From Flavobacterium nackdongense (lineage in GTDB: Bacteria; Bacteroidota; Bacteroidia; Flavobacteriales; Flavobacteriaceae): DNA of 64,000 bases. The position numbers and the translations under genes were made by a program. The notes beneath the pieces are model-generated. The model did no database searches. It saw nothing but the letters and a program-made list of their open reading frames with translations, and was not told the origin of the DNA. Location: assembly GCF_004355225.1 (NCBI RefSeq), contig NZ_CP037933.1:2170001-2234000 (forward strand). The letters are read 5' to 3'. Below are positions 4,250-18,747 of the stretch, piece after piece; the stretch's first letter is position 1, and each line of letters starts with the position of its first letter.

Positions 4250-5116
4250 CTACTTCTTAGCCGACAAATAAACCCCAGCCAAAATAATAAAAGCTCCTAA
4301 AAACTGCACTGGAGTCAGCATTTCCTTATCTAATAATCCCCAAGAAAAAGCAACTATTGGAATTAAATACGTTACCGAAGTGGCAAAAACAGGCGATGAA
4401 ATTTGTATTGTTTTAAAGAAAAGTATATTGGCAATTCCCGTTCCCACAACACCTAAAATCATAATAAACAATACCGAATGCTGAACACTTTCGACCGCTA
4501 TTAGATCGAAAAAACCAGAGAAAAACAAAATCGCTAAAGCAGGAAACAACAAAACCGAAAAATTACCGGTACTAATACTCAGCGGACTCAAATCGGATAA
4601 ATATTTATTGATTAAATTGACATTCGTTGCATAACAAATCGAGGCTATAATAACCAAAATTGCATAATAATAATTTTGCTCCGGATGATGAATAGCTCCG
4701 TTTATAATTAACAAAAATGTTCCTATTAATCCAATAATCACCCCCAAAATCTGAGCCCTTTTAAAACTCAAACCAAAAGCCAACCCGCCTAAAATCATGG
4801 TATTTAAAGGCGTAAGCGAATTCAGAATTGCACTGACAGAACTGTCGATTTGAGTTTGCGCAATTGCAAAAAGAAAAGCCGGAACAAAAGTGCCCAACAT
4901 AGCCGTCAAAGCGATATATTTCCACTGATGTAGCGGAATTTTACATAGACTTTTGAATCCAATTAGCAACAAAAAAATGGCTGCAAAAATAATCCGCAAC
5001 GAACCTAATTGCAAAGGCGTCAACCCCACTAAACCTCTCTTAATCAAGATAAAAGAACTCCCCCAAATTAAGGCAAGCGTTATCAGGTACACCCATTTCA
5101 ACTGTTTCGAATTCAT
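4250..5116 (-). CDS. EamA/DMT-family transporter (inner membrane)
   Basis: 288 residues with about ten hydrophobic helices in two repeats of five (about 5-140 and 150-288), the layout of the drug/metabolite transporter superfamily. The first helix carries the family's WGSSFILIKRGL motif, and the second half ends FLGAFIILAGVYLSAKK. Members export amino acids, nucleosides or small metabolites; nothing here indicates the substrate. Transcribed alone, convergent with the M16 operon and divergent from the HMA lipoprotein gene. Confidence 0.9.
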   Translation of the reverse strand: MNSKQLKWVYLITLALIWGSSFILIKRGLVGLTPLQLGSLRIIFAAIFLLLIGFKSLCKIPLHQWKYIALTAMLGTFVPAFLFAIAQTQIDSSVSAILNSLTPLNTMILGGLAFGLSFKRAQILGVIIGLIGTFLLIINGAIHHPEQNYYYAILVIIASICYATNVNLINKYLSDLSPLSISTGNFSVLLFPALAILFFSGFFDLIAVESVQHSVLFIMILGVVGTGIANILFFKTIQISSPVFATSVTYLIPIVAFSWGLLDKEMLTPVQFLGAFIILAGVYLSAKK

Positions 5117-6550: not shown

Positions 6551-7612
6551 TTAATTCTTTGTGGGAATAGTATCGATTTGCTGTCCAACAGCATTTTTAA
6601 ACACATTCAAATTCCAAGAATCTCTCCATGTGATTGAGATTTTTCCCTCAAGGAAATCAATAGGTAGCCAAATGTACCTGCCTGTAATAGGTTTATCGGG
6701 TTGCCAAATATCAAACATAGCTATAAAACTATCCTCATTACCTTGGACAGGCAAAATAAATGTTGACTGTGAGCCAAAGTTTTTCTCAACCCCAAGATTA
6801 TCTAAAGGATTATAACCAGCACAAGGATTGCCTTGGTTTGTCCATTCGCCAAGTATGTTTTTAGCCGTATAATATCGTGCTGGGTTGGGTTTCCAACCCG
6901 TTGAACCAGAACCCAACAGATGATAAACTCCGTTTCTTTTTATGACCGCCGGAGCTTCAGTATGGGCTTCAATACCTCTGCAAATGGTGTATTTACTTTC
7001 GGGATAATAGTAGTCACTATCCATCTTGGCAATGACAAAAGCTTTGTCAGGTTTGCGAACTGTTAAGTGATAAAGACTACCATCATCATCTTTAAACATC
7101 GAAAAATCACCTGAACCATTGGGTGAATCAGCGCCATGAAATTTATGATGAAAAATAAATGGTCCCGTCGGTTGATCGGCAACGGCAACTCCTACATTAC
7201 TTGTTACATACCCCAGGCCGGCTAAGTACAGTTTAAAATAGGCTACAAACTGCTTGTTTTTTTTATTGTAAACGACTTTCGGCCTTTCGAGAATACATCC
7301 ATAAGAAAGATCGCTTTTTGAATTTTTATAATCTACGCTTAAAACCAAACCCTCATCTTTCCAGTTGATTAAATCAGCAGATGAATAGCAATGTATGCCG
7401 CCATCGGCAAACTGCGCTTCCGATTTCCCTTCCAGCTTGTGCTCTCCATACCAATAATAGGTGTTATTATGAAAAAGAATACCGCCACCGTGCGCATTTA
7501 TGGGGGTTCCGTTATTGTCTAACCAAACTTGAGCTGGTTTAAAATTGGTTTGCTGCGCTTGCATTACACTAGAAAAATAGATCAGCAACGCCACAATTAA
7601 AATTCGTTTCAT
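6551..7612 (-). CDS. Secreted GH43 glycoside hydrolase, exo-beta-1,3-galactanase-like
   Basis: A signal peptide (1-20) precedes a single five-bladed-propeller GH43 domain over the full 353 residues. The protein has HGGG at residues 41-44 where most GH43 enzymes carry their general-base Asp. Candidate acid residues are Glu109 (LERPKV) and Glu219 (TEAPAV), with a Gln at 282 (GSQST). This Glu/Glu/Gln arrangement without the Asp base resembles the exo-beta-1,3-galactanase branch of GH43, acting on arabinogalactan-type chains; that assignment is an inference from the motifs. It follows a GH29 gene on the same strand after a ~230-base spacer. Confidence 0.85.
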   Translation of the reverse strand: MKRILIVALLIYFSSVMQAQQTNFKPAQVWLDNNGTPINAHGGGILFHNNTYYWYGEHKLEGKSEAQFADGGIHCYSSADLINWKDEGLVLSVDYKNSKSDLSYGCILERPKVVYNKKNKQFVAYFKLYLAGLGYVTSNVGVAVADQPTGPFIFHHKFHGADSPNGSGDFSMFKDDDGSLYHLTVRKPDKAFVIAKMDSDYYYPESKYTICRGIEAHTEAPAVIKRNGVYHLLGSGSTGWKPNPARYYTAKNILGEWTNQGNPCAGYNPLDNLGVEKNFGSQSTFILPVQGNEDSFIAMFDIWQPDKPITGRYIWLPIDFLEGKISITWRDSWNLNVFKNAVGQQIDTIPTKN

Positions 7613-14345: not shown

Positions 14346-14410
14346 GAATGTTATATTCAAAATACATTTCCAGTTTCACCTCCTCCCCTTCGGGGAGGTC
14401 GGGTGGGGCT
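14283..14410. repeat. Palindromic element bridging the ruvC end and hemW start
   Basis: The left arm (14283-14307, AGCCCCCTAACCCCC, AAA, GGGGGAA) and the right arm (14382-14410, CCTCCCC, TTC, GGGGAGG, TCGGGTGGGGCT) are related in inverted orientation and each forms its own hairpin. The whole looks like a small MITE-like element of about 128 bases. It encodes the last residues of RuvC and, in another frame, the first ~20 residues of HemW. Confidence 0.7.
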
Positions 14411-15589
14411 ATCTACATCCACATCCCTTTTTGCAAGCAGGCTTGTCATTATTGCGACTTTCATTTTTCAACTTCAATGAAAAAGAAAGACGAAATGGTT
14501 TTGGCCTTGGCTAAAGAAATTCAAATGAGAAAAAATGGGCTTCTCGACTCCGCTCGAAGTGACAAAGAGGAAATGATAGAAACCATTTATTTCGGTGGCG
14601 GAACACCTTCTACATTGCAGATTGCAGATTGCAGATTTTTGATTGAAGAAGTTTATAAGAACTACAAAGTTTCAGAAAATCCCGAAATCACGCTCGAAGC
14701 CAATCCCGATGATTTGTCTGAAGATTATTTGATTGCACTTTCAAAAATTGGAATCAACCGGCTATCTATCGGAATTCAATCTTTTTTTGAAGACGATTTA
14801 ACGATGATGAATCGCGCCCATAATTCGGCGGAAGCAAGAAAATGTCTTGAAATCGCAACTCAATATTTCGACAACATTTCCCTCGATTTGATTTATGGAA
14901 TTCCAGGAATGAGCAACGAAAAGTGGAAGAAAAACATTGAAACAGCGTTGAGTTATGGCATTCCGCACATTTCGAGTTATGCCTTGACGGTCGAACCCAA
15001 AACCGCTTTGAACAAACTTATCCAAACTGGTAAAATCGGAAAACCAAACGATGATTTAGCGCAAGAACATTTTCAGATTTTGGTCGCAACACTTGAAGCA
15101 AATGGTTTTATCCATTATGAATTGTCGAATTTCGGGAAAGAGAATTATTTTTCGAAGAACAATTCGGCCTATTGGTTGGGAAAAAAATACATCGGGATTG
15201 GTCCTTCGGCGCACAGTTATGATGGCATTTCCAGGAGTTGGAATGTTTCGAATAATGCTATTTATTTGAAATCTTTGGGTGAAAATAAATTACCCAACGA
15301 AATGGAAATTTTATCCAAAACCGACCGTTACAACGAATATATTATGACAGGATTGCGAACCATTTGGGGCGTTTCTTTGGATAGAATTTCGGACGAATTT
15401 GGAAACGAATATTCAGACTATTTGCAAAAGCAATCGCAGAAATTTATAAATGACGGTTTGCTTGAAATCGTCACTTCGAGTGTCCCGATGCAATCGGGAA
15501 GTATCGAGAAGATTCTAAAACCAACCAAAAAAGGAAAATTTTTGACGGATGGAATTGCGAGTGATTTGTTTTTTATTAATCCTATTTAG
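14348..15589 (+). CDS. hemW: HemW-type radical SAM protein (heme chaperone / HemN-like)
   Basis: HemW proteins bind a 4Fe-4S cluster and SAM and are thought to deliver heme; they are often annotated as oxygen-independent coproporphyrinogen oxidase. IYIHIPFCKQACHYCDF gives the cluster cysteines 29, 33 and 36 (Cx3Cx2C) and the aromatic residue after the third Cys. FGGGTPS is the SAM-binding glycine motif, and a HemN_C domain follows residue ~310. At least four segments look foreign and coincide with interspersed repeats: residues ~12-20, ~65-72, ~90-96 and ~375-388. The only in-frame start codon upstream of the conserved part is ATG 14348. The 3' end is repeated at 17826-17891. Confidence 0.93.
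   Translation: MLYSKYISSFTSSPSGRSGGAIYIHIPFCKQACHYCDFHFSTSMKKKDEMVLALAKEIQMRKNGLLDSARSDKEEMIETIYFGGGTPSTLQIADCRFLIEEVYKNYKVSENPEITLEANPDDLSEDYLIALSKIGINRLSIGIQSFFEDDLTMMNRAHNSAEARKCLEIATQYFDNISLDLIYGIPGMSNEKWKKNIETALSYGIPHISSYALTVEPKTALNKLIQTGKIGKPNDDLAQEHFQILVATLEANGFIHYELSNFGKENYFSKNNSAYWLGKKYIGIGPSAHSYDGISRSWNVSNNAIYLKSLGENKLPNEMEILSKTDRYNEYIMTGLRTIWGVSLDRISDEFGNEYSDYLQKQSQKFINDGLLEIVTSSVPMQSGSIEKILKPTKKGKFLTDGIASDLFFINPI
14540..14563. repeat. CTTCTCGA...TCGAAGTGAC repeat inside hemW
   Basis: A 24-base (8-codon) unit, CTTCTCGACTCC followed by GCTCGAAGTGAC, is translated as part of LLDSARSD. Its reverse complement shares both ends (GTCACTTCGAG and TCGAGAAG) with the repeat at 15470-15511 in the same gene. 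Confidence 0.7.
14614..14637. repeat. (ATTGCAG)3 heptamer repeat inside hemW
   Basis: Three perfect tandem ATTGCAG units plus ATT are translated as LQIADCR straight after the conserved GGGTPS motif. The same heptamer, in the other orientation and also in frame, lies in the glycosyltransferase gene 2.1 kb away, where it again encodes LQIADCR. Confidence 0.75.
15470..15511. repeat. GTCACTTCGAG...TCGAGAAG repeat inside hemW
   Basis: A 42-base (14-codon) unit has outer ends GTCACTTCGAG and TATCGAGAAG around an inner palindrome TCCCGATGCAATCGGGA. It is translated as VTSSVPMQSGSIEK near the HemW C-terminus. It is an inverted, longer relative of the 24-base unit at 14540-14563. Confidence 0.72.
15531..15572 (+). 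repeat. Left copy of 42-bp direct repeat (hemW 3' end)
   Basis: This segment encodes GKFLTDGIASDLF at the end of HemW. It matches 17827-17868 at 40 of 42 positions. After the repeat the two copies diverge: here the gene ends FINPI, in the other copy LNLELD. Confidence 0.85.
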
Positions 15590-15729
15590 CAGTATTTTTT
15601 GAGAATATTATTTAAACTTGACTTGAAGGGTAATTTAATTTATCGAGGATAAATTTGTTTTTTTTAGTTGTATTGTAACATTTTGAAATCTATCGTATCA
15701 AAAGGGCAAATAACTAAAAAACAATTATT

Positions 15730-16581
15730 ATGAAATCAATTAAATTATCTTTTGTACTTACGCTTTTTATTGCACTATTTTATTCTGAAAGTTATGCTCA
15801 AAGCAAGCCCTATTCTTTTGATGTAAAAGTTTCTGGAAAAGGAAATCAAGCCATTATTTTTATTCCTGGTTTTGGTTGTTCCTCGGAAGTTTGGAATGAG
15901 ACCAAAATCAATTTTGAAAAAACGCACACTTGTTACACTCTGACAATGGCAGGTTTTGCGGGAACACCTCCACGGGACAATGCCACCTTCAATAACTGGG
16001 AAAAAGATATTGCAGATTTTATCAAACAAAACAAAATAAACAAGCCAATAGTAATTGGACACAGTATGGGCGGTGGGTTGGCAATGGCTATTGCTGCTGA
16101 TTATCCTGAATTACTTTCGAAAATAATTGTTGTTGATGCGTTGCCTTGCTTGTCTGCAGTGTGGAATACTTCTTTTAAGTCAAATGCAAACAACGATTGT
16201 AGTGAAACAGTAAACCGAATGATGGCAGTATCTGAAGATCAATTTTATCAAATGCAAAAAATGATGATGCCTCAATTATTGGCAGATACTTCAAAACAAG
16301 ATTTGGTTTTAAATTGGACAATAAAATCGGATAGAAAAACATTTGCCGAAATGTTTTGTGATTTTTCAAATACTGATTTGAGAGAAAAAATAGCTGGCAT
16401 AATATGTCCAACATTAGTGTTGTTAGAGCCAAGTTTTGCCAATATAAAACCTGCAATGAACGATCAATACAAAAACCTTAAAACGGCTCAATTAGTCTAT
16501 GCCACCAAAGGCTTACACTTTATAATGTACGATGATAAAGATTGGTATGACAATGAACTTAATACTTTTATAACCAAATAA
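15730..16581 (+). CDS. Secreted alpha/beta-fold hydrolase
   Basis: A signal peptide (1-23, ending SYAQ) is followed by an alpha/beta hydrolase domain. IIFIPGFGC (43-50) is the oxyanion-side loop, GHSMGGG places the nucleophile Ser112 in the GxSxG elbow, and LHFIMYDD near the C-terminus supplies the catalytic His. The acid is probably the Asp/Glu in the LVLLEPSF region, which is atypical (Glu in place of Asp). Substrate unknown. It is the first gene of a tight group with a small membrane protein and an ECF sigma factor, bracketed by copies of the hemW 3' end. Confidence 0.85.
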   Translation: MKSIKLSFVLTLFIALFYSESYAQSKPYSFDVKVSGKGNQAIIFIPGFGCSSEVWNETKINFEKTHTCYTLTMAGFAGTPPRDNATFNNWEKDIADFIKQNKINKPIVIGHSMGGGLAMAIAADYPELLSKIIVVDALPCLSAVWNTSFKSNANNDCSETVNRMMAVSEDQFYQMQKMMMPQLLADTSKQDLVLNWTIKSDRKTFAEMFCDFSNTDLREKIAGIICPTLVLLEPSFANIKPAMNDQYKNLKTAQLVYATKGLHFIMYDDKDWYDNELNTFITK

Positions 16582-16602
16582 TTAATTAAAAAAAACATTA
16601 AA

Positions 16603-16764
16603 ATGAAAAAACCATTTACAATTTCGATACTTGCGATGTCAGCAGGAATTGGCACCGCAATGGGTGTAGCATTAAAAGACACTGCAGTTGGATTTGCTAT
16701 TGGCATAGCTATATTTGTAATGATGATTATTGCAAAAAAAACTAAAAAATCAAAAGACCTATAA
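16603..16764 (+). CDS. Small glycine-zipper-like membrane protein (53 aa)
   Basis: A 53-codon frame starts ATG AAA AAA and stops one base before the ECF sigma start codon. The product has two hydrophobic segments (about 6-24 and 28-43) with Gly/Ala spaced as in glycine zippers (SAGIGTAMGVAL, AVGFAIGIAI) and a Lys-rich C-terminus. Placement between the hydrolase (21-base gap) and the sigma gene (adjacent) makes it very likely real. It may sit in the membrane as part of the signalling unit; no family name can be given with certainty. Confidence 0.75.
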   Translation: MKKPFTISILAMSAGIGTAMGVALKDTAVGFAIGIAIFVMMIIAKKTKKSKDL

Positions 16765-17235
16765 ATGGATTTTGAAGAAATATACAAAACCTATTGGCAA
16801 AGAATATTCCGTTTGTGTATGGGATACGTAAACGATCATGATTGGGCAAAAGATATTGCGCAGGAAACGTTTATAACCGTTTGGCAAAAATTACCAGATT
16901 TCAGAAACGAATCTTCAATAGGAACTTGGATTTTCCGGATAGCATCCAATCATTGTTTGCGACAAATTGAAAAACAAAATAGGATGGCTAAGTCTGATTT
17001 GCCGCTAGAATTAGAAGAAGTACCATCAATTAATAATGAACCAAAATATAATTTTTTGTATCAATGCATTGCTGAATTACCTGAGATTGACCGTTTAATC
17101 ATTTCATTAGAATTGGAAGATATTAAACAAGCGGAAATAGCTTCTATTGTTGGTATTTCTGAATCAAACGTTAGAGTAAAGATTCACCGTATTAAAGAAA
17201 AATTGACTAAAAAATTTGAAAACTATGAACACTAA
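16765..17235 (+). CDS. ECF RNA polymerase sigma factor (RpoE-like)
   Basis: 156 residues with the two ECF regions. Sigma2 covers about 5-75 (YVNDHDWAKDIAQETFITVWQKL, then the SSIGTWIFRIASNHC promoter-melting segment). Sigma4 covers about 100-153 (LPEIDRLIISLELEDIKQAEIASIVGIS, then the helix-turn-helix ESNVRVKIHRIKEKL). Region 3 is absent, as expected. The start codon directly follows the small membrane gene's stop, and the 3' end overlaps the next gene by 20 bases, so the four genes form one operon in which the last product is a candidate regulator of this sigma factor. Confidence 0.92.
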   Translation: MDFEEIYKTYWQRIFRLCMGYVNDHDWAKDIAQETFITVWQKLPDFRNESSIGTWIFRIASNHCLRQIEKQNRMAKSDLPLELEEVPSINNEPKYNFLYQCIAELPEIDRLIISLELEDIKQAEIASIVGISESNVRVKIHRIKEKLTKKFENYEH

Positions 17236-17818
17236 TATTGATTTTAAAGAGTTATGGAACAAACAAAAAATGGATATTCCAGACCCCAAAGAACTATTTG
17301 AAAAAACAAAAGAATTCAAAAAGAAGAGTTTTCGAAAACTGCTTTTGGCAAATATTACTTTATTATTTACAACTGCTTTTTTATTGTTTATTTGGTATTA
17401 TTATAAACCAGAATTCATCACAAGTAAGATTGGTATTGTATGCATAATACTTGCAATGTTTTTATATCTATTTGTTTATAATAAAATGGCAACTTTCTTG
17501 AAAAGTAATAATTATGAAATGGATACGTCACAACATTTACAACAATTACTAAAATTAAAAGAGAAAGAACGTTTTTTACAAACAACAATTTTGAATGCAT
17601 ATTTTATTTTGTTGAGTATTGGGATTTGTTTGTATATGTATGAATATACTTGTCGTATGACAATGCTTTGGGCAACAGTTACCTATGGCGTTACTTTGGC
17701 GTGGATTGCATTAAATTGGTTTGTTTTTAGACCCAAAACAATTAAAAAGCAACAAAAATCATTAAATGAATTAATTGAAAAATTTGAAAAAATAAACAAT
17801 CAGTTAATTCAAAAATGA
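17216..17818 (+). CDS. Four-helix membrane protein, candidate anti-sigma partner
   Basis: 200 residues: an N-terminal soluble stretch of about 40 residues (DFKELWNKQKMDIPDPKELF), four hydrophobic helices (about 42-63, 70-88, 124-144, 146-166) and a C-terminal charged coil ending in KINNQLIQK. It overlaps the ECF sigma gene by 20 bases, the arrangement typical of sigma/anti-sigma pairs, but no zinc-binding anti-sigma motif (HxxxCxxC) is present. The role as anti-sigma factor is therefore inferred from position. Its stop codon lies 7 bases before the second hemW 3'-end copy. Confidence 0.75.
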   Translation: MKTMNTNIDFKELWNKQKMDIPDPKELFEKTKEFKKKSFRKLLLANITLLFTTAFLLFIWYYYKPEFITSKIGIVCIILAMFLYLFVYNKMATFLKSNNYEMDTSQHLQQLLKLKEKERFLQTTILNAYFILLSIGICLYMYEYTCRMTMLWATVTYGVTLAWIALNWFVFRPKTIKKQQKSLNELIEKFEKINNQLIQK

Positions 17819-17825
17819 TAATAAA

Positions 17826-17891
17826 CAAGGAAAATTTTTAACGGATGGAATTGCGCGTGATTTGTTTTACTTAAATTTGGAATTGGATTAA
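17826..17891 (+). pseudogene. Duplicated 3' fragment of hemW
   Basis: 22 codons without a start of their own read QGKFLTDGIARDLFYLNLELD and stop. They align with the last residues of HemW (GKFLTDGIASDLFFINPI); the 42-bp core at 17827-17868 differs from the hemW copy at two positions. The LNLE-type ending looks to me more like a usual HemW C-terminus than FINPI does, so this may be the original end of the gene, displaced by the 2.2-kb insertion. Confidence 0.8.
17827..17868 (+). repeat. Right copy of the 42-bp hemW 3'-end direct repeat
   Basis: This copy matches 15531-15572 at 40 of 42 positions. Together the two copies flank the hydrolase / small membrane protein / ECF sigma / membrane protein cassette. 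Confidence 0.85.
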
Positions 17892-17892
17892 C

Positions 17893-17964
17893 CACTAAGA
17901 ACACAAAGTAGGCACTAAGTTCGCTAAGCTTTGTGTCCTTAGTGCCTACTTTGTGTCCTTAGTG
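17893..17964. repeat. CACTAAG...CTTAGTG inverted repeat
   Basis: 26-base arms (17893-17918 and 17939-17964) match with one mismatch around a 20-base loop. The arms are built from CACTAAG and ACAAAG units. It begins 2 bases after the hemW fragment. It could also act as a terminator, but no T-run follows. Confidence 0.78.
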
Positions 17965-17980
17965 TTTAAAATAATTAAGT

Positions 17981-18382
17981 ATGATTACAATCTCAACCGA
18001 TAAAACAAAACTAAATATTCCCTTCATTCAAAACTTTTTGAAGGACATTTATTGGGCAGCTGGAAGAACTATTGACGAAGTGCAAACCACTATTGACAGT
18101 TCAGTTTGTTTTGGTATTTATTTAAATGATGTCCAAATTGGGTTTGCCAGAGTGGTCACAGATTATGTGGTTTTTGCTTATTTGATGGATGTTTTTATAG
18201 CTGAGGAACAGCGAGGAAAAGGATATTCTTCTATATTAATTGATGCAATGATGAAAGAACCGGTTTTAAAAGAGGTTAAAATTTGGCGATTGGCAACATC
18301 TGATGCCCACTATTTATATGAGAAATTCGGTTTTAAGGCATTGGCACATCCAGAAAAAATGATGGAAAAAATAACGATATGA
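17981..18382 (+). CDS. GNAT-family N-acetyltransferase
   Basis: 133 residues with the GNAT core: strand-rich centre GFARVVTDYVVFAYLMDVFIAEE leading to the acetyl-CoA-binding loop QRGKGYSS (motif A, R/QxxGxG/A, about residues 80-87) and the C-terminal YEKFGFKAL. The acceptor substrate is unknown. The 3' end overlaps the following YjbR-family gene by 4 bases (ATGA), so they are co-translated. Confidence 0.9.
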   Translation: MITISTDKTKLNIPFIQNFLKDIYWAAGRTIDEVQTTIDSSVCFGIYLNDVQIGFARVVTDYVVFAYLMDVFIAEEQRGKGYSSILIDAMMKEPVLKEVKIWRLATSDAHYLYEKFGFKALAHPEKMMEKITI

Positions 18383-18747
18383 ACCTAGAAACCTACTACG
18401 AATATTGCCTTTCAAAAAAAGGAGCTACCGAACATTTTCCGTTCGATCACGATACTTTAGTTTTTAAAGTGGGTGGAAAAATGTTTGCGCTTTCTTCTTT
18501 ATTGCAATGGGAAAAAGGCGAGCCTTCCGCAAATTTGAAGTGTAATCCCGATTATGCACAAGAATTACGCGGCCAATACGGCGACGTTCAGCCGGCATTT
18601 CATATGAGCAAAACACATTGGAATACGGTTGTCATAAACAACGAATTACCCGATAAATTTATCAAGGAATTGATAGATGATTCTTATGATTTGATTTTTA
18701 ATAGTTTAACCAAAAAAACACAAGCAGAAATTCTTGAAATGGATTAA
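18379..18747 (+). CDS. MmcQ/YjbR family DNA-binding-fold protein
   Basis: 122 residues matching the YjbR/CyaY-fold family: an N-terminal CLSKKGATEHFPFDHDTLVFKVGGKMFAL and the late WNTVVINNELPDKFIKELIDDSYDLI. The fold resembles a double-wing DNA-binding domain, but a biochemical role is not established for the family. Co-transcribed with the GNAT gene. Confidence 0.88.
   Translation: MNLETYYEYCLSKKGATEHFPFDHDTLVFKVGGKMFALSSLLQWEKGEPSANLKCNPDYAQELRGQYGDVQPAFHMSKTHWNTVVINNELPDKFIKELIDDSYDLIFNSLTKKTQAEILEMD

Follow-up and report, generated by a model that had tools for sequence, protein, structure and literature searches.

An apparently displaced hemW 3′ end beyond an ECF-sigma operon in Flavobacterium nackdongense and its possible origin by one-sided import

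Genomic islands and integrative and mobilizable elements (IMEs) insert in the 3′ ends of genes and carry a replacement end that restores the target, with direct repeats flanking the insert. Operons of extracytoplasmic function (ECF) sigma factors with a membrane partner occur in Bacteroidota. A third relevant process, homology-facilitated illegitimate recombination (HFIR), reportedly operates in Escherichia coli conjugation. For modules of the type VI secretion system (T6SS) in Vibrio, excerpts of one study propose an HFIR-like displacement in which the 3′ end of a gene is shifted downstream (PMC5361080). Here we describe a locus of Flavobacterium nackdongense that can be compared with all three. 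In the window, by which we mean the whole stretch of 64,000 nucleotides that was analysed (assembly GCF_004355225.1, contig NZ_CP037933.1, positions 2,170,001 to 2,234,000, forward strand), an ECF-sigma operon stands directly behind hemW and is followed by a second copy of the hemW 3′ end (Table 1). We propose, with a probability of roughly one half and as the simplest account of the scar, that the operon was imported by homologous recombination within hemW on one side and was joined illegitimately within the recipient's hemW end on the other.

As far as the excerpts of PMC5361080 describe it, the displacement of Vibrio T6SS effector-immunity modules resembles this locus, as we read it, in having a homologous anchor on one side, a joint on the other that may here too be non-homologous, and a displaced 3′ end behind the new module. 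The locus differs in its genus, in its cargo, which is a regulatory operon, and in its target, a housekeeping gene that keeps its function. With genomic islands and IMEs it shares flanking direct repeats, here derived from the target gene with 43/46 bases identical, and a target restored by the carried end; unlike them, the insert has no integrase, its cargo is an ordinary operon found mostly at one chromosomal site, and the repeats vary from site to site. Like the ECF sigma operons of Bacteroidota, the window's operon has a sigma gene overlapping a membrane-protein gene and an ECF-type promoter motif of its own, whereas its membrane protein shares no more than 56% identity with any found in the genus, family and phylum genome samples, its closest database relatives being at 81-87%.

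The repeat comprises positions 15527-15572 and 17823-17868. The original prediction had placed it at 15531-15572 and 17827-17868 with two mismatches in 42 bases, and the count is correct (2/42 differ); it was also right that the second copy runs to its own stop with a HemW-like terminus, and that a hydrolase, a 53-residue membrane protein, an ECF sigma factor and a further membrane protein, all intact open reading frames (ORFs), lie between the copies. Nor is any recombinase visible in the insert, as had been claimed: none of the four ORFs matched a recombinase family in Pfam. Within the 64 kb the best other match to the 46-mer is 27/46, and a comparison of the 69-base second tail with the whole genome, a single contig of 4.22 Mb, gave two matches above noise (E 7e-30 and 1.5e-13; the next 0.47). 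The other three direct-repeat families in the window (at least 30 nt, copies within 12 kb) have identities of 72-79%.

Because insert-free relatives show the hemW end, the spacer and the GNAT gene as one run, we take tail 2 to be the displaced native end of hemW, and hemW itself to carry a replacement end. From the hemW tail to the GNAT start, identity to the window is 128/148 in F. franklandianum (L096), 134/153 in L119, 134/156 in L104, 119/140 in F. cellulosilyticum (L094), 114/136 in L095 and 115/136 in L120; two loci, L110 and L176, have almost no spacer after hemW. In the window, too, the palindromic CACTAAG-type repeat comes next after tail 2 and precedes the GNAT gene. The empty site that had been predicted, with hemW ending in the downstream type of copy ahead of the repeat and the GNAT gene, is what insert-free relatives such as F. 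franklandianum have. The broader proposal, an element inserted in the 3′ part of a gene with a replacement end and a displaced remnant, is upheld by these empty sites in its anatomy; a classical integrating element, that is an integrase-borne island, is not supported by the content of the insert, in which no recombinase was seen.

Table 1. The hemW locus of the window: the gene, the insert, both tails and the right-hand neighbours
Feature	Position	Strand	Remarks
hemW (radical SAM heme chaperone)	14348..15589	+	Intact; apparently replaced end ...DLFFINPI; NCBIfam TIGR00539 HemW, 282 bits, cut-off 205
Tail 1, hemW 3′ end now in use	15527..15589	+	Matches tail 2 up to GATTTGTTTT, then differing terminus and TAG stop
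ECF-type promoter motif	15674..15697	+	TGTAACATTTT-N9-CGTA; spans 56 to 33 bases upstream of hydrolase start
Alpha/beta hydrolase	15730..16581	+	Pfam PF00561, E 2.1e-18; N-terminus resembles a signal segment by eye
53-aa membrane-type protein	16603..16764	+	ORF; no family above curated cut-off
ECF sigma factor (regions 2 and 4)	16765..17235	+	PF04542, PF08281; TIGR02937 above cut-off
Membrane protein	17225..17818	+	Overlaps sigma gene; candidate anti-sigma factor from its position
Right joint	17819..17828	+	10 bases from membrane-protein gene stop to GGAAAAT of tail 2
Tail 2, putative displaced native hemW 3′ end	17829..17891	+	GKFLTDGIARDLFYLNLELD-stop; continuous with spacer and GNAT in insert-free relatives
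Palindromic repeat (CACTAAG-type)	17881..17976	.	48-nt arms, 81%; between hemW end and GNAT; common to empty sites
GNAT acetyltransferase	17981..18382	+	Native right neighbour
YjbR-family gene	18379..18747	+	Native right neighbour

The insert is complete to the last codon of the operon, whose stop lies 10 bases ahead of tail 2. Judged from its sequence, the layout is that of an autoregulated ECF sigma operon with a conserved promoter motif of its own, which the sigma factor would read. A motif of the form TGTAAC-N13..15-CGTA stands 49-82 bases before the aligned hydrolase start in 64/78 other operons, 14 being without it, and a single site in the 64 kb, the one upstream of the hydrolase, fits the weaker form GTAAC-N13..19-CGTA. 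Both its position and its membrane segments make the larger membrane protein a candidate anti-sigma factor. Searches with this protein and with the insert DNA gave no match among the plasmids searched; phage records yielded four weak hydrolase matches (24-25%).

In the import that we favour, 2.3 kb would have arrived as one piece, made up of a foreign Flavobacterium hemW 3′ end and an intact, self-regulated ECF-sigma operon. The left crossover would have taken place inside hemW by homologous recombination, and because it lay there hemW would have received the donor's last codons. The right joint would be illegitimate and would have separated roughly the last 63 bases of the recipient's hemW from the gene, leaving this native end as a remnant between the operon and the GNAT gene. 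In agreement with one homology-joined end, hemW is unbroken and its frame continues to a different terminus. At the other side, the recipient's hemW end is retained and is continuous with the native spacer and GNAT gene, and the joint falls within 10 bases after the membrane-protein stop. We infer the order of events and the uptake of DNA as the route; genes for ComEC and DprA are present in the genome.

In named genomes, the hemW loci most similar to that of the window come from Flavobacterium. Among the 119 hemW homologues listed, of 8000 matched, only P0175 ends like the window's protein (FFINPA versus FFINPI). Its longest contig is equal in size (5073) to that of P0246, a relative of the hydrolase (81%), and the contig of a second hemW, P0124, equals in size (4568) that of P0005, a relative of the membrane protein. 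Equal contig sizes also pair likely operon partners, namely P0004 with P0243 and P0014 with P0250, the latter two named Ignavibacteriaceae. Matches in contig size to a hemW are found for 2/17 members of the close operon clade against 1/219 of the remoter operons (Fisher p 0.014). Two metagenome lineages, P0175 and P0124, thus probably have the operon beside hemW, the linkage being read from these equal sizes. Along the protein, P0175 ranks 16-101 of 119 in similarity to the window's HemW and 2nd of 119 in the last 33 residues, a segment that holds the motif by which P0175 was picked. The operon carriers fall in three places in the hemW tree. Together these data suggest, through indirect linkage, that a hemW end travels jointly with the operon from lineage to lineage.

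The operon itself is widespread in the genus. Of 398 sampled Flavobacterium genomes, 76, the window's genome among them, gave a match to the hydrolase at E ≤ 1e-92, and 102 have a membrane-protein match at E ≤ 0.001, some of them weak; the 29 best-scoring other loci all have the hydrolase, sigma and membrane-protein genes side by side. Among 79 other operon stretches, a count that excludes one stretch from a wrong contig, hydrolase and membrane protein stand together in 78, the membrane protein being absent from L294. With the window included, 64 of 79 operons lie beside a large ORF that was recognised by text motifs and that we take to be leuS, and 15 lie elsewhere. A second operon in the window's own genome, at 1308846-1310888, is 50-61% identical. 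No operon was found within 5 kb behind hemW at any of 157 other distinct hemW loci, some of which end early at contig ends. At E ≤ 1e-66, the 344 family genomes gave no closer copy except that of the own genome, and the 394 phylum genomes gave matches in G946 (56%) and G182 (53%). The closest database relatives of the hydrolase are 81-98% identical.

Two questions bear on whether the window's arrangement is a single event: (i) whether other copies of the operon are bracketed by repeats; and (ii) whether other inserts have entered hemW at the same place. With respect to the first, we called a repeat abutting when its right copy began at most 60 bases after the membrane-protein stop and its left copy ended at most 500 bases before the hydrolase, at E ≤ 1e-3. 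Abutting direct repeats flank 13/78 other operons, against 0/69 control gene blocks from hemW loci. A search for the same four-gene set at other loci had been suggested; operon copies are found widely, most of them without abutting repeats. Beside leuS, 11/64 copies have an abutting repeat, in all cases a short one and mostly a terminator-like palindrome; the TTCCAA palindrome is present in 9/11 of these, with a similar one in the other two (L311 and L315). Outside the leuS site, L224 and L225 have one (2/14 copies besides the window; Fisher p 0.027), giving 3/15 with the window counted (Fisher p 0.005), each against the same 69 controls. In L224 (genome G238) the copies, of 304 and 320 bases and 81% identical, lie directly around the operon at 4523-4826 and 6902-7221; that genome has two near-full and seven partial copies of the repeat, three partial ones being 4-7 kb upstream on the same contig. 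In L225 (genome G030) the repeat is 119 nt long, 77% identical, and occurs exactly twice in the genome. In the window, L224 and L225 alike, the membrane-protein stop is 5-15 bases from the start of the right copy, and no common end sequence was seen after the stop in these three.

When coding gene ends were compared across the operon at all 79 loci, copies were detected in the window, L225 and L212, against 0/69 controls. In L225 the right-hand gene is represented a second time, 2.4 kb left of the operon and on the far side of three other genes, by a decayed stretch corresponding to its last 43 residues (70% identity). A 195-base repeat at this locus, at 2441-2631 and 7227-7419 in operon orientation, takes in the coding 3′ end of that gene and encloses both the three genes and the operon; on the left it has decayed to a remnant that contains a stop. 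The L212 pair was set aside as paralogous neighbouring genes, the repeat of L228 flanks a tandem paralogous operon, and the repeats of L230 do not abut the operon.

With respect to the second question, in Flavobacterium sp. KMS (L115) hemW is followed by a dehydrogenase gene and then, just before the cyclase gene, by a 57-base second hemW tail, 1135-1191 bases after the hemW stop, an independent duplication that is decaying and still in frame. The tail is 47/57 identical, with a score of 64 where the highest of 40 shuffles reached 28. To within a few bases, the second tails of KMS and the window share their starting point in hemW, a GGAAAAT. The KMS repeat is longer, because part of the spacer leading to the cyclase start is present on both sides. 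KMS is the one strong case among the 157 other hemW loci. L130, L132, L137, L194 and L209 also have this dehydrogenase behind hemW, with no clear second tail. Degraded tails were considered for these five and rejected: L130 scored 29 against a 95th percentile of 28 and L209 33 against 32, both borderline, the others falling below their shuffles. Tail-like matches in L238 (34), L233 (34) and L098 (31) exceed the shuffle maximum of 28; they proved on inspection to be 20-33 bases long and were not taken as second tails. Further scores above that maximum are those of L237 (33), L201 (33), L146 (30) and L144 (29).

These comparisons lend some weight to a different view, which we regard as possible though tentative: the operon may be a recurrent insertion unit that lacks its own recombinase and, at each entry into a gene end or intergenic site, leaves the target directly duplicated around it, whether by single crossover of a circle with target homology, through a recombinase supplied in trans, or by way of staggered breaks. 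The idea of a moving operon that duplicates its target gained ground, to the same limited level, from the bracket check. In its favour, repeats abut three of the 15 copies outside leuS and none of the 69 control blocks, the start of the right copy is constant, L225 retains a decayed gene end to its left, and the KMS tail begins at the same GGAAAAT. However, the insert has no recombinase, the three bracketed copies share no end sequence, 12/15 copies outside leuS have no abutting repeat, the distance from the left repeat to the hydrolase varies (143, 158 and 329), and the target repeats differ in length and kind, being plainly coding in the window only. In its most specific form, which we consider rather doubtful, the operon would be a recombinase-free mobile unit of Flavobacterium that enters at or behind gene 3′ ends, with its right end just after the membrane-protein stop, duplicates 46-320 target bases at each entry and leaves the invaded gene working, hemW being a favoured landing place whose breakpoint was also used by the KMS dehydrogenase insert. 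An old insertion, passed on vertically in some Flavobacterium lineages and removed from others when the two tails recombined and restored hemW, would explain why the divergence of the operon between carriers (81%, 83%) is similar to that of their hemW (82%, 81%), and a 46-bp repeat could permit precise loss; yet it is unlikely, given that the carriers' hemW rows require three changes on the hemW tree, that the nearest relatives by flanks have no operon, and that the hemW termini of P0175 and P0124 differ. Chance or an assembly artefact we hold to be extremely improbable: it is refuted by the existence of the empty sites, and it would also have to produce 43/46 identical bases where the best other match is 27/46, in a genome assembled as one 4.2-Mb contig and with tail 2 continuing into sequence present in relatives.

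The one-sided import that we prefer has its own difficulties. HFIR is described as rare in experiments in the excerpts of PMC5361080, and F. johnsoniae as not naturally competent in the laboratory in PMC7965970. No donor of high nucleotide identity was found, the nearest relatives of the window's flanking genes being 84-90% identical, and the probable linkage in P0175 and P0124 comes from equal contig sizes and not from contig sequence. The abutting brackets of L224 and L225 at other sites are not predicted by a one-off event in hemW, a second tail starting at the same base in KMS is not favoured by chance joints, and the same anatomy would result from a circular molecule integrated by one crossover. 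Even so, the locus offers a legible scar, in which a complete regulatory operon was apparently added behind a housekeeping gene without a recombinase of its own and with the gene left unbroken. With similar brackets in two other genomes, and with a different cargo at the same base of hemW in a third, the choice between a one-off import and a repeatedly moving unit becomes testable. We suggest as a search rule that a short second copy of a gene 3′ end beyond an insert marks imports overlooked by island finders based on integrases.

Some further observations concern what follows hemW in the genus. The first gene within 165 bases after it, at 118 distinct loci, is GNAT in 13, YjbR in 8 and cyclase in 57. 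The interval from hemW to GNAT or YjbR is variable, 57/157 loci having more than 300 bases before the usual markers or none of these markers, contig ends included. We considered whether the insert had replaced a cyclase gene, which is not seen behind the window's hemW (the whole-genome check used a 60-residue piece as query); the flank-close relatives L095, L096 and L176 are also without it, and the idea was dropped. In L092 (JAGOFG010000155.1, from 2347 onward) hemW and the following cyclase gene seem to form one open frame of 687 aa, possibly a fusion or an assembly error.

At other loci the hemW 3′ end adjoins a GIY-YIG nuclease gene that has a palindrome on each side, the left one of ATCCTGAACTAG/TTTCAGGAT type and the right one of GATGCTGAAA...TTCAGCAT type (L111, L123, L124, L170, L164, L208, L193, L190, L148, L166, L183, L150 and L152). 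The left palindrome supplies the last codons and the stop of hemW (ILN or MLN), and the arrangement looks like a repetitive extragenic palindromic (REP)-like element with its own nuclease. These termini go with GIY-YIG genes at 12/12 loci. They were considered and set aside: at nucleotide level, a palindromic repeat has become part of the end of hemW, which is a different process. A match in L270 with a score of 46 was likewise dropped, being a tandem copy of the GIY-YIG-associated palindrome. A literature search on gene-end duplication and GIY-YIG palindromes brought up nothing specific among the entries listed, and one on hemW in connection with islands or integration sites gave a single hit. 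Finally, repeat-like palindromic segments can be seen by eye to be read in frame within hemW itself, at 14376-14412 and 15478-15501 of the window, and similar in-frame segments are visible within several of the database hemW homologues.

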